Positions 45,554 to 50,106 of a stretch of DNA of 64,000 bases are shown here, in pieces. The DNA lies in the NCBI RefSeq assembly GCF_000966285.1, contig NZ_KQ031391.1:2887208-2951207 (forward strand), written 5' to 3'. Numbering within the stretch: position 1 is the first letter of the stretch; each line of letters begins with the position of its first letter. Made by a program: the position numbers and the translations under genes. The stretch is from Pseudofrankia sp. DC12 (GTDB lineage Bacteria; Actinomycetota; Actinomycetes; Frankiales; Frankiaceae). The notes beneath the pieces were generated by a model. It was not told where the DNA came from. It saw only the letters and a list, made by a program, of their open reading frames with translations, and did no database searches.

Positions 45554-46822
45554 CTAGCCGACGCGGGCCAGCTCGCGGGCACGGCGGCGGTCGCGCAGCC
45601 AACGGGTGCCCGTGCTGGCCTCCCGGTAGACCCGGCGCACCGCCGGGACCTGGTTCGACCGCAGCACGTGGCGGCGCAGCGGCTGGATGCCGCCGCCATG
45701 ACGGCTCCCCATCGCCATCGCGACCGTCATCGGATCCGGCCCATCCTGCTCACTGTCCGGGCTGGCCAGCTCGCGGTCGAGGAGATCGTCCATTCGTTCG
45801 AACCAGTCCGAGCCTCTGCGCGCGTGCGCCTGCACCCGGCCGACCGCGAGACGCCCGGAGCGGTCGAACTCCGTCAGTGCCGCCGGGACGTCGCCGTCGT
45901 GCTGGCGCAGGAACCGGGCGAGCATGACGGCGTCCATCATCGCCAGCGCGGTTCCTGACCCGAACGTGAAGTGGGTGGTGTGCGCGGCGTCGCCGATCAG
46001 CACGATGTTGTCGTGCCGCCACGAGCGGTTGCCGACATGGGTGAACCGCTGCCAGTGGGCTGGCCGAGTCGCGTCCCGGCCGCCGTCGCCGCCGAGAAGG
46101 TGGTGACCGGCGAGCTGACGGGCGAAGATCGTCTCCAGCAGCTCGCGCCCGGCCGCGTCGTCGAGCCGGTCCAGACCGAGCCCGGCCCAGGTCGTCGACG
46201 CGCATTCGAAGACGCAGGTGCCGCCGTCCGCGGCCGAGGGATACGAGTGGAACCAGATCCAGCCATGCTCGGTGCGCTCGAACGCGAACCGGAAGTCCGT
46301 GAACCGCTGGTCGGTGCCCAGCCAGATGTACGGGTTGCTTCCCTCCTCGAGCCGGGTGCCGAAGGCATCCGGCCCGGCCAGCCGCCGCACCCGGCTGCGC
46401 CCGCCGTCCGCGGCGACCACCAGGTCATTCTCAGCGCACAACGCCTGTAGCTCCGCCGCGTCGGCCATTTCCTGACGGTGCCGCAGCTGGACGCCGAGCT
46501 CGCGCGCACGCCGGGTGAACAGGTCAAGCAGGACCGACCGCTGGATGCCGTAGCCGTGGCCAGGCATGTAGGCGGTCCGAGCACCGATGGTGAGCCGCTG
46601 CTCCTGCCACAGCGTCGAGGCGTCATGCACCGCCTGGGCGCCGACCGGGTCGTTGCGGTACATGATGTCGATCAGCTGTTCCCAGTAGACGACCCCCCAG
46701 CCGTGCGTCGATCCGGCGGGGTCGCGCTCCATCACGGTGATCTCATGGCTGGGGTCACGCTGCTTGGCGCAGATCGCGAAGTACAGCCCGGCGGGCCCGC
46801 CGCCGACACACACAATCCTCAT
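45554..46822 (-). CDS. Class A FAD-dependent monooxygenase beside RiPP-like precursors
   Basis: 422-aa single-component flavin hydroxylase. The Rossmann motif VGGGPAGLYFA is at the start. The NAD(P)H/FAD DG motif is AADGGRSRVRRL, and GDAAHTTHFTFGSG binds FAD phosphate. It resembles aromatic or indole hydroxylases of the VioD/salicylyl-CoA hydroxylase group. It is leftward with two Gly/Trp-rich precursor genes upstream and no other biosynthetic genes, so it may oxidise their Trp or Phe residues (inference). The ATG at 46822 opens MRIVCVGGG; an ATG 12 codons upstream is possible. The C-terminal 50 residues are basic and not part of the fold. Confidence 0.88.
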   Translation of the reverse strand: MRIVCVGGGPAGLYFAICAKQRDPSHEITVMERDPAGSTHGWGVVYWEQLIDIMYRNDPVGAQAVHDASTLWQEQRLTIGARTAYMPGHGYGIQRSVLLDLFTRRARELGVQLRHRQEMADAAELQALCAENDLVVAADGGRSRVRRLAGPDAFGTRLEEGSNPYIWLGTDQRFTDFRFAFERTEHGWIWFHSYPSAADGGTCVFECASTTWAGLGLDRLDDAAGRELLETIFARQLAGHHLLGGDGGRDATRPAHWQRFTHVGNRSWRHDNIVLIGDAAHTTHFTFGSGTALAMMDAVMLARFLRQHDGDVPAALTEFDRSGRLAVGRVQAHARRGSDWFERMDDLLDRELASPDSEQDGPDPMTVAMAMGSRHGGGIQPLRRHVLRSNQVPAVRRVYREASTGTRWLRDRRRARELARVG

Positions 46823-46952
46823 CCGAGCCGTCACCTTCCGTGAGTTCTCCCTCACCATGCTCTTCCGTGTCGGTACCCGCTTCTGTCGCCGCCGATGCCG
46901 CGGCCCCGCCGGCCGGGCAGGCCCGCCGCCGCGCCCGGCCCAGTGGACGCCA

Positions 46953-46983
46953 GTGGCGGTGGTCATCGAGCGACCACCGCCAC
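46953..46983 (-). terminator. Hairpin downstream of precursor peptide 1
   Basis: Perfect 12-bp stem: GTGGCGGTGGTC and GACCACCGCCAC with a 7-nt loop, 92 bp past the peptide 1 stop and before the monooxygenase. The stem shares GTGGCGGTGG with the hairpin after peptide 2. It could act as a partial terminator that keeps enzyme levels below precursor levels. Confidence 0.65.
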
Positions 46984-47074
46984 CAACGAGTCCTGCTTGC
47001 GGGATGTCTGCTTTCAGAGGCATCGGGATCAGGAGCTGAGTGCCGGTCAGCTGCCGGCACGGCTGTACGGGCTG

Positions 47075-47227
47075 TTACCAGTTGCCCCAGCCACCCCAAC
47101 CTCCGCCCGAGCCACCCCAGCCACCCCAGCCGCCCCAACCGCCCCAGCCGCCCCAGCCACCCCAGCCGGTGCAGTCGCGGAACGAGCCTGCGACCTCGAG
47201 AGTCGGCGCTTGGTACGTAGCCTTCAT
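47075..47227 (-). CDS. RiPP-like precursor peptide 1, lasso-type leader and WGG repeats
   Basis: 50-aa peptide. The leader MKATYQAPTLEVAGSFRDCT matches the YxxPxLxxxGxFxxxT pattern read by RRE proteins in actinobacterial lasso pathways. After T20 the sequence is Gly 19, Trp 9, Ser 1 and Asn 1, mostly WGG repeated six times, ending in NW. There is no Asp or Glu at core positions 7-9, so lasso ring closure is impossible. The start is secure: GGAGGAA lies 7 nt upstream and the second precursor shares the leader. The final modified product is unknown. Confidence 0.8.
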   Translation of the reverse strand: MKATYQAPTLEVAGSFRDCTGWGGWGGWGGWGGWGGWGGSGGGWGGWGNW

Positions 47228-47447
47228 GGTCGATTCCTCCGTCCATCCAGTTCGGCGGCGCCCATCGGCGCGCTCCGGCCGGACGAAGCGGCAGCCACCA
47301 ACCTGTGAGCCGTAACCCGACGGGGCGATAACCGCTCGCATCCAACCAGTCACTGGTGTCCCACCCAGGGATCCACTACGCGTCCATCGCGTGGAGTGAC
47401 CGGAAAGCGCCGAGGGTGGGCGCCCGCGTCACGAACCACGAGAAACG

Positions 47448-47481
47448 CCGGTGGCGGTGGATGAAGATCCACCGCCACCGG
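47448..47481 (-). terminator. Hairpin downstream of precursor peptide 2
   Basis: Perfect 15-bp stem: CCGGTGGCGGTGGAT with ATCCACCGCCACCGG, loop GAAG, 99 bp past the peptide 2 stop. CGTTTCT follows on the minus strand. It separates the two precursor genes. Confidence 0.75.
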
Positions 47482-47579
47482 GTCGTCTCTCCTCAGCTGG
47501 CGGGTGAGACTTGTCCCGTAGTTGAAGAGCGAGAAGCCGAGGTGACCGGCCGGAGATCGCCGGTGCGAGGCTGCGCGCG

Positions 47580-47756
47580 TCAGCAGCCCCAGCCACCACC
47601 CCAGCCGCCGCCCCAGCCGCCGCCCCAGCCGCCGCCCCAGCCGAATCGGCCCCAGCCGAAACCGAGTCCGAAGCCGCCGAAGCCAAAGCCGAAGCCGGTG
47701 TGCTCGCGGAAGGAGCCCTCAGCCTGCAGGGTCGGTGCCCTATACGTAGCCTTCAT
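47580..47756 (-). CDS. RiPP-like precursor peptide 2, lasso-type leader and FG/WGGG repeats
   Basis: 58-aa paralogue. The leader MKATYRAPTLQAEGSFREHT shares every conserved position with peptide 1. The core begins with GF repeats (six Phe), then R, then five spaced WGGG units, and ends in Cys. The ribosome site GGAGGAACGGGC before ATG is nearly the same as for peptide 1. The change from WGG to WGGG periodicity, with the leader held constant, suggests selection on the leader and free variation of the core. Both aromatic sets could be targets of the nearby flavin monooxygenase. Confidence 0.8.
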   Translation of the reverse strand: MKATYRAPTLQAEGSFREHTGFGFGFGGFGLGFGWGRFGWGGGWGGGWGGGWGGGWGC

Positions 47757-47808
47757 GCCCGTTCCTCCGTCCGTCGGTACTCGCAGAAGCCTCTTCGGCG
47801 CTGCGGCC

Positions 47809-47900
47809 GATACCGAACGGTAGGCTTGTACTCACACCGACGACTCGCGCGGCTACGCAACGACCCGCCTGCTACCGTCCGATACCGACCAATACCAGAA
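47809..47900. promoter_or_regulatory. 10-bp phased repeats upstream of precursor 2
   Basis: On the plus strand GCTACCGTCC, GATACCGACC and AATACCAGAA follow each other at exact 10-bp spacing (47871-47900), with a further GATACCGAAC at 47809-47818. One helical turn per unit suggests a cooperative activator or repressor site 115-145 bp before the precursor start. Confidence 0.5.
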
Positions 47901-48222
47901 TGCCACCAGTCGGTTCACCTGGGGTTCAGCACGCTGCGCGACGACGGCCGCTACCACGAGGATGAGGACGAACCGCTCAGGCTCCACCGAACCTGATGCT
48001 CGGGGACGGCCCCGGGACGTACGCTGCTGGCCGCAGGGCGAATCCCGCCGGCTCCCCCATCTGGTTCCGGCTGGCCCGGATCCGAACCATGTCCGGCGTC
48101 GATCCCCCAGTCGGCGCGGAAATGCGGAGCCGTCGTCGCCGAGGCCGCGGCTTGACGCGGCGGGCGCGGGCCACCGGCGGAGGACCCGAAGAGCGCGGGG
48201 ACACGGAAGGCGCGGGCTACCC

Positions 48223-49380: not shown

Positions 49381-50106
49381 TCACGGGTCGAAGCGGTAGC
49401 CCATGCCACGCAAAGTGGTGACGAGGCGGCGCTGCGGCGGACGCCCCTCGACCTTGGTCCGGACTCGCCGGACGTGCTCGGTCACCGTGGCCGGGTCCTG
49501 GAAGCGGGTGCCCCAGACCTGCTCCAGCAGTTCCTCACGGCTGAAGACGCGACGCGGGTGCCGGGCGAGGAAGGCCAGCAGCTCGTACTCACGGGCGGTG
49601 AGGTCGATCCGCTCGCCCGCGACAGCCACCTCCCGGGCGCGCAGGTCGATCGACACGTCGCCGTAGATCAGCGGCTCGTTGCCGTCCCCGGACCGTTGCG
49701 GCGGCGCTTCCACGGGACGGCGGCGCAGCCGGGCCCGGACCCGCGCGACCAGCTCGCGCAGCGAGTAGGGCTTGACGACGTAGTCGTCGGCCCCGAGCTC
49801 CAGGCCCACCACCCGGTCGACTTCCTCGGCCCGGCCGGTGAGCATGATCACCGGGACCTCGCTCGTCTGCCTCAGCCGGCTGAGCACGGCGAAGCCGTCC
49901 ATGCGCGGCATCGCGACGTCGAGGACAACCAGGTCGATCTCTGTGGTCTGGAACAGGCGAAGCGCGGTCTCGCCGTCCGCCGCCTCCAGAACGCGGTATC
50001 CGAAACGTTCCAGACTGCGCGCGAGTGCGACGCGCGATGCTTCGTCATCCTCCGCGACGAGGAGCGAGGCTCCTCGCGTCGTCGTCGCGACTGCTTCCCC
50101 GGTCAT
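49381..50106 (-). CDS. OmpR/PhoB-family response regulator
   Basis: 241 aa. The receiver has D20/D21 and phospho-acceptor D63 (VVLDVAMPRMDG), with Lys in YVVKPYSLRELVARV. The winged-helix effector shows LTAREYELLAFLARHP, EELLEQVWG and VTEHVRRVRTKVEG. No kinase is adjacent, so it is an orphan here. It is convergent with ricT. Confidence 0.92.
   Translation of the reverse strand: MTGEAVATTTRGASLLVAEDDEASRVALARSLERFGYRVLEAADGETALRLFQTTEIDLVVLDVAMPRMDGFAVLSRLRQTSEVPVIMLTGRAEEVDRVVGLELGADDYVVKPYSLRELVARVRARLRRRPVEAPPQRSGDGNEPLIYGDVSIDLRAREVAVAGERIDLTAREYELLAFLARHPRRVFSREELLEQVWGTRFQDPATVTEHVRRVRTKVEGRPPQRRLVTTLRGMGYRFDP

Follow-up and report, generated by a model that had tools for sequence, protein, structure and literature searches.

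In a 64,000-nucleotide stretch of the Pseudofrankia sp. DC12 genome (hereafter the window; positions 2,887,208-2,951,207 on one contig of 6.88 Mb), we identified two short genes for Gly/Trp-repeat peptides that are followed on the same strand by a gene for a VioD-like flavin monooxygenase (FMO). It is probable that this FMO hydroxylates the Trp indoles of the peptides inside the cell, and that the modified peptide is then released and exported. The proposal draws on which genes are present and how they are arranged, on the reappearance of the pair in other genomes, on the pattern of substitution in the peptide cores, on the match of the enzyme to VioD by profile and by fold, and on N-termini that vary from lineage to lineage. 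The genes are as follows:

47580..47756, minus strand: precursor 1, 58 aa; leader MKATYRAPTLQAEGSFREHTG, then GFGF..WGGGWGC; a Gly/Phe/Trp core ending in WGC; open reading frame (ORF) matching Pfam PF19397 (DUF5972; 22.7 bits, cut-off 22.6), GGAGGAA upstream
47075..47227, minus strand: precursor 2, 50 aa; leader MKATYQAPTLEVAGSFRDCTG, then WGGWGG..NW; a WGG-repeat core; ORF matching NF033521 (lasso_leader_L3; 22.5 bits, cut-off 19), GGAGGAA upstream
45554..46822, minus strand: FMO, 422 aa, group A, VioD-like

Along the minus strand the order is precursor 1, precursor 2 and FMO, with gaps of 352 and 252 bases, and the GGAGGAA sites end 5 and 6 bases before the ATG of precursors 1 and 2, respectively. 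The FMO frame stays open to a possible start at 47023, and the start was placed at MRIVCVG since ATG or GTG stands at that position in 23/23 loci inspected. An earlier note on this DNA had described two tiny genes with lasso-type leaders, Gly/aromatic cores and GGAGGAA sites beside a same-direction FMO, and all of these parts were found among the ORFs. Its identification of the leaders as YxxPxL leaders also holds. The motif is present in both, and each precursor passes one leader model and falls below the cut-off of the other; the stretch scanned for precursor 2 was two residues shorter at the N-terminus.

The two precursors are the only ones among 477 window ORFs of 30-260 aa to pass a Gly/aromatic composition test, and a passing frame arose in 3 of 200 mononucleotide shuffles of 46800-48000. 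Across 23 lasso-leader precursors, the cores comprise 61.5% Gly and 30.9% Trp (794 residues, counted from the first GG or GW, which omits a short Phe/Val/Ile-rich start), and also contain Phe, His and Tyr. Core codons were compared between related precursors in 18 pairs, with some precursors entering two pairs: 138 differences are synonymous and 79 non-synonymous, where about 25% synonymous is expected under neutrality, and the rate ratio is about 0.19 in the core versus 0.39 in the remainder of the gene; the repeat alignments behind these core counts are uncertain. Non-synonymous differences outnumber synonymous ones in 5 of the 18 pairs, of which three (L074_1/L075_1, L073_1/L074_1 and L116/L117) are at or below the neutral expectation. 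Taken together, the Gly/Trp cores look like real coding sequence under selection. The alternative of a wrong frame through a GC-rich repeat was rejected because the core differences are mostly synonymous and the leader, ribosome site and start all lie in the Gly/Trp frame. The locus resembles those for ribosomally synthesized and post-translationally modified peptides (RiPPs) in having a short precursor, a conserved leader, a variable core and an adjoining enzyme that is likely to tailor it.

The FMO is closest to VioD by sequence and by fold. A profile of 22 FMO orthologues matched VioD chains at 1e-54 and 9e-54, the next other enzyme following at 8e-19, and a fold search with the FMO model gave VioD at 4e-30, with kynurenine monooxygenase next at 2e-19. 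The identity to VioD is about 25%. The model has a pLDDT of 83.7 and a pTM of 0.86, with weak parts at residues 246-255 and about 280-288, the latter adjoining a conserved motif; the fold matches have root-mean-square deviations of 5-8 A, and therefore only the overall fold is safe. The flavin motifs GGGPAG (GxGxxG), DG and GD are invariant in 22 aligned sequences, including that of the window, as is W188-x-W190-x-H192-x-Y194-P195. The FMO scores 161 bits against the VioD equivalog NF053547, below the cut-off of 620, and 333 bits against the salicylyl-CoA 5-hydroxylase model NF006101 (cut-off 1078), covering positions 1-346 of 768. The enzyme has its best profile and fold matches, and shares its flavin motifs, with VioD and the N-terminal part of salicylyl-CoA 5-hydroxylase, but it is a stand-alone ORF beside a peptide gene, and at only 422 aa it does not match the bifunctional architecture of the latter (about 770 aa).

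VioD hydroxylates an indole, and both it and kynurenine 3-monooxygenase act on small molecules. The likeness to VioD, together with a Trp-rich product, makes hydroxylation of peptidyl Trp the leading idea. The dedicated FMO would act on the core, hydroxylating several Trp and perhaps Phe or other aromatic residues, and would yield hydroxy-Trp by the chemistry of its class, which uses NAD(P)H and O2 and proceeds through a flavin hydroperoxide. Flavin-dependent Trp halogenases carry the motif WxWxIP; the Pfam model Trp_halogenase (PF04820) passes narrowly on the FMO (24.2 bits, cut-off 21), and this assignment was rejected because the conserved stretch reads W188-x-W190-x-H192-x-Y194-P195 instead. 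The same replacement bears on a wider alternative, that the FMO modifies the core by another chemistry, namely by adding two hydroxyls to give a quinone, by cross-linking Trp oxidatively, or by oxidising Phe, His or Tyr. Those three residues are indeed found in the cores, and QhpG offers a precedent for peptidyl-Trp dihydroxylation, placing two hydroxyls on one Trp (PMC7876137). Nevertheless, the nearest relatives of the FMO by sequence and fold are single hydroxylases, halogenation is unlikely, and we regard such a chemistry as quite improbable here. The FMO would resemble QhpG, likewise a flavin monooxygenase, in having Trp of a polypeptide chain as its substrate; QhpG differs in modifying one Trp of a cross-linked enzyme subunit in a single turnover (PMC7876137). 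No chain named QhpG was among the 41 matches of the FMO profile.

The association of precursor and FMO is conserved in Frankiaceae. At E<=1e-40 the FMO was found in 23/35 Frankiaceae genomes, with best non-window matches 51-83% identical, and 22 of the 23 genomes fall in a single clade of FMOs linked to Gly/Trp genes (a peptide gene within 4 kb, on either strand), while G021 groups elsewhere. A Gly/Trp gene lies directly upstream on the same strand in 19/19 Frankiaceae loci with upstream sequence (in one, G006, leader and core are on separate contigs), and three more stop at a contig edge. The earlier note had proposed the absence of leader plus monooxygenase from related genomes as a refutation of its reading, and this result speaks for the pairing. 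PF19397 matches were obtained in 8/8 genomes of the genus at E<=0.1 (7 above cut-off) and in 24/35 Frankiaceae genomes at E<=0.05 (17 above cut-off). Their translations mostly have the same leader type before Gly/Trp cores, some having lasso-type cores with Asp, and the model can miss precursors, for example in G027. Gly/Trp precursors occur in 21/22 linked genomes (not seen in G007) versus 2/13 others (G018 and G020), a co-occurrence with p 2e-6 when kinship is ignored and precursors are read from translations. Flanking genes differ between the linked Frankia loci (L063, L068 and L064) and the Pseudofrankia loci, and some neighbours are kept: Pseudofrankia and Parafrankia loci alike have a response regulator gene nearby. 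Among the matches listed, from which the window's own genome may have been omitted, the nearest FMO relatives are in Frankia sp. AgB1.9 and Pseudofrankia sp. BMG5.36.

To look beyond Frankiaceae, we searched 84,980 species genomes, which gave at least 573 FMO relatives, and retained the best 80; these include Nocardia, Streptomyces, Saccharopolyspora, Pseudonocardia and Geodermatophilus. A search for the leader motif around FMOs outside Frankiaceae returned one spurious match (L119) and no real partner, so that by leader alone the pairing would have seemed confined to Frankiaceae. A composition search of the same surroundings revealed Gly/Trp-repeat genes with other N-termini. In Nocardia and Streptomycetaceae, the peptide gene is mostly 100-150 aa and mostly ends 105-310 bases before the FMO; it has a signal-peptide-like N-terminus (by eye) followed by Gly/Trp repeats with His, Asp, Asn or Phe. 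Some starts of this signal-peptide type are too long, and composition is quoted for the lasso-leader set only; the 36 signal-type precursors counted for composition include L139, whose false-frame match, like that of L082, is not used as evidence. A third type, in Pseudonocardiales, Saccharopolyspora and Geodermatophilus, has a gene of 29-69 aa whose short N-terminus reads MKIKEIF, MQIKDTF or otherwise. ABC exporters belonging to a single family (cluster 1) are present in 11/14 third-type loci, some of which are ordered peptide, exporter, FMO, and in 9/17 exporter-bearing loci there is a 4-base overlap between the exporter and the FMO start. The cluster 1 exporter is absent from L110 and L113, where the peptide lies 91 bases ahead of the FMO.

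In a quick tree of 119 FMOs, all 72 linked sequences (39 signal-peptide type, 19 lasso-leader type, the latter in Frankiaceae only, and 14 third type) group together in a clade of 88 members (SH-aLRT 99, the only support calculated). A Gly/Trp gene is within 4 kb in 72/81 testable members of the clade versus 0/31 sequences outside (Fisher p about 7e-20, kinship ignored), which makes a chance neighbourhood unlikely. For the tree, 8 of the 80 loci (L102-L109) were omitted because their genomes had already been entered from the Frankiaceae set, and five duplicates (L112, L121, L126, L141 and L172) were dropped. Labels were set by hand for L134, L115 (which ends 446 bases upstream), L111 (Ser/Trp rather than Gly/Trp, and farther upstream than others), L159, L118 (whose contig begins within the repeat) and L070 (a core without leader at an assembly gap). 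Seven clade members were set aside: L079, L086 and L089 at contig ends, L140, L168 and L174 whose contigs start at the exporter, and L170, whose contig stops short of the place seen in relatives. The 31 outgroup sequences include 18 bifunctional enzymes (ORFs of about 700-830 aa), none with a Gly/Trp gene in the available flanks, mostly 1.5 kb upstream. Outgroup flanks as a whole are mostly about 1.5 kb upstream (137 bases in L213, 576 in L217, 1904 in L198; 4-6 kb in 8 others), with less than 0.5 kb downstream of the bifunctional enzymes; they suffice for the upstream place and not for the exporter-type layout. Matches in L204 and L208 (MelC1-like) and L220 (a Trp-free stretch) were not counted.

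Some FMO relatives outside the linked clade deserve mention in their own right. L091 and L172 (a Frankiaceae metagenome-assembled genome) and L179 have no Gly/Trp gene in the available flanks, and an ORF upstream in L091 resembles a GNAT/FemX-type protein by eye. L230 and L234, stand-alone FMOs assigned by group to Streptomycetaceae, are divergently oriented to a gene resembling MelC1, a tyrosinase cofactor (by eye; 2/7 loci of the group).

Since one FMO clade accompanies Gly/Trp cores with differing N-termini, the recurring unit is the repeat core plus the FMO. The lasso-type leader, judged from these comparisons, is the Frankiaceae version of an N-terminal part that appears exchangeable, while core type and enzyme stay together. 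In Nocardia and Streptomycetaceae the signal peptide would serve for delivery, and in Pseudonocardiales often the ABC exporter; the product may be a redox-active or cross-linking extracellular peptide. A broader proposal, to which we give slightly less than even weight, is that several actinobacterial families make undescribed poly-hydroxytryptophan peptides, in which a Gly/Trp scaffold for a VioD-like peptidyl-Trp hydroxylase has swapped N-terminal parts (a lasso leader processed in trans, a signal peptide, or a short leader paired with an ABC exporter) and gives redox-active or self-cross-linking extracellular material. Such material can be likened to adhesive proteins rich in 3,4-dihydroxyphenylalanine (DOPA), as their Trp counterpart.

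The Gly/Trp peptides might instead be unmodified structural or surface proteins, with the FMO making a small aromatic compound, such as a pigment or cross-linker, that acts with them. The signal-peptide-like N-termini of 39 sequences would suit this explanation, as would the use of small molecules by VioD and kynurenine 3-monooxygenase and the MelC1-like gene (by eye) that adjoins the FMO in 2/7 loci of a neighbouring Streptomyces group. A plain structural protein, on the other hand, has no need of a lasso-type leader, and in the neighbourhood clusters no gene family other than the ABC exporter recurs beside the FMO across most lineages; a short-chain dehydrogenase-like gene is near it in 8/80 loci and TetR-like regulators in 13/80. 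We therefore consider this explanation unlikely.

Several observations weigh against hydroxylation of peptidyl Trp by a dedicated FMO. VioD itself acts on a small molecule. The genome of the window has a further FMO relative with 37% identity. As all linked sequences belong to one clade, the pairing may have a single origin, and a clear Gly/Trp gene is missing from 9/81 testable members of the clade: in L181 a Trp/His/Asp peptide takes its place, the flanks of L177 are short, and no Gly/Trp gene was present within 4.5 kb in L167, L178, L169, L150, L122, L123 and L173. The link is looser in 7 of the 72, with an intervening gene or a gap of about 2 kb, and in Saccharopolyspora L129, L144, L153, L164 and L166 the peptide gene is 3.1-3.6 kb away on the opposite strand, beyond the exporter. 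Some Streptomycetaceae cores are poor in Trp and rich in Asp/His (L135). Lasso-leader Gly/Trp precursors also occur with no FMO beside them (L052, L057, L062, L066 and L067), all in genomes that carry a linked pair too. Finally, genes for the lasso leader peptidase B2 are so common in Frankiaceae (31/35 genomes; 22/22 linked and 9/13 others, p 0.014) that finding them in every linked genome lends weak support to their use in trans, and this co-occurrence was dropped as proof of trans processing. As a separate observation, the peptide of L181, at about 3.5-4.1 kb, is rich in Trp, His and Asp with few Gly and stands where a precursor would be, ahead of the ABC exporter and FMO, and core composition may therefore drift.

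The earlier note had found no lasso cyclase, RiPP recognition element (RRE) protein or protease. Near the locus this stands as far as the B2 model goes, all of whose matches in the genome fall outside the window (no model for B1 or the cyclase was run on the window); for the genome as a whole it does not, since B1, B2 and a cyclase-like protein are encoded about 117 kb from the peptide/FMO pair in a lasso cluster, L049, where the note's suggestion to look elsewhere for B1 and B2 is borne out. This cluster encodes B1 (NF033530, 106.9 bits, cut-off 70), B2 (NF033537, 111.5 bits, cut-off 33), an ABC transporter, a cyclase-like protein under the cut-off (NF033561, 208 bits, cut-off 300), and a precursor with leader MKARYETPTLDAAGAFSQVTD and core GRWGWGRDWLWRSF... 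Its leader has 11/21 residues in common with each window leader. It is possible that the L049 machinery processes the window leaders in trans: in Frankiaceae, the RRE protein B1 would bind the lasso-type leader and B2 would cut it. A second B2-like gene is at G000:C1:741580-741966 (L059; 49.8 bits, cut-off 33). Lasso precursors of the genus (L049:8865-9062, at about 3.05 Mb in the genome; L060; L061) have Asp at core position 8 and a long Gly-rich tail, e.g. ..RSFPRYYGGGGGGGGGGAIIIVGGGPGGGGGGW, and these tails resemble the Gly-rich cores beside the FMO.

The matching leader models, the shared leader residues and the presence of the cluster could also mean that the Gly/Trp peptides are themselves lasso peptides made in trans. 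A lasso ring needs Asp or Glu at about core position 7-9. As the earlier note had observed, neither window core contains either residue, and over 23 precursors the 794 counted core residues include 1 that is acidic, near a C-terminus, with none by eye in the uncounted core starts; lasso precursors of the same genus retain the acidic acceptor (..GRWGWGRDWLWRSF). A lasso product was rejected on these grounds and is extremely improbable. The peptides share with lasso peptides the YxxPxL leader type, the NF033521 and PF19397 matches and a Thr near the likely leader end, but they differ in lacking the acidic acceptor and a B2 beside the precursors, and in having a Gly/Trp-repeat core and an adjoining FMO; moreover, the linked sequences outside Frankiaceae lack a lasso-type leader.

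A non-lasso peptide with a lasso-like leader has a parallel in LPP, Bacillota RiPPs that share the lasso RRE-binding motif (YxxP) (PMC13381572). LPP differ in belonging to another phylum and in having their own RRE, a signal-peptidase-like leader peptidase and a kinase, with a phosphorylated product (PMC13381572). Titles and abstracts in a literature search, which had most subscription journals outside its reach, contained no Gly/Trp peptide with an FMO, and nothing on DUF5972 was present in the literature searched. The Gly/Trp core plus FMO defines no peptide class known to us or tested here, and the family may be undescribed. It would be a new class under the RiPP heading and not a new heading, the RRE-type leader, group A flavin enzyme and ABC exporter each being known. 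The earlier note had proposed a new class with oxidised Trp/Phe and a leader handled in trans. The VioD-like enzyme and the existence of a B1/B2 set fit this, with hydroxylation and processing in trans both presumptive, but the leader is not the defining part; the system is better described, on present comparisons, as a peptide of Gly/Trp repeats that has an oxygenase of its own and is delivered by apparently exchangeable N-terminal parts. If so, this would be a peptide family defined by core and oxygenase and not by leader, and searches from leaders, RREs or cyclases would find the Frankiaceae part only. It would also add repeated peptidyl-Trp hydroxylation by a flavin enzyme and a natural source of hydroxytryptophan-rich peptides, and offer a precursor that swapped its recognition tag in evolution while core and enzyme were retained. 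In Frankiaceae, cross-talk of lasso machinery with a second substrate would become directly testable.

Two hairpins were found in the window locus:

47448..47481, minus strand: hairpin 3' of precursor 1, 15 pairs
46952..46984, minus strand: hairpin between precursor 2 and FMO, 12 pairs, without a T run; repeat D3

The region has 2 terminator-like sites, against an average of 0.9 in shuffles, and the precursor 1 hairpin is one of them. A scan of the region for sigma-70-type promoters found none. Elsewhere, a GTGGCGGTGG/CCACCGCCAC stem (GTGGCGGTGG-type) is located 3' of the precursors in L071-L075. The same place is taken by a GAGCCCGG/CCGGGCTC stem in many Nocardia loci and, in Streptomycetaceae loci, by a stem formed around GTGCCCG or ATGCCCG in which the opposite side changes to match. 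The same hairpin search gave no stem of more than 8 pairs in the lasso-leader loci L080, L092, L083, L076, L077 and L090 or in the Nocardia loci L128, L137, L139, L151 and L158. As partial terminators or as 3' ends, these stems may favour the precursor over the enzyme, and the hairpin between precursor and enzyme gene would keep precursor output above enzyme output. In addition, a response regulator gene is present at 49381-50106 of the window (minus strand), and its relatives are those near the FMO in the Pseudofrankia and Parafrankia loci.

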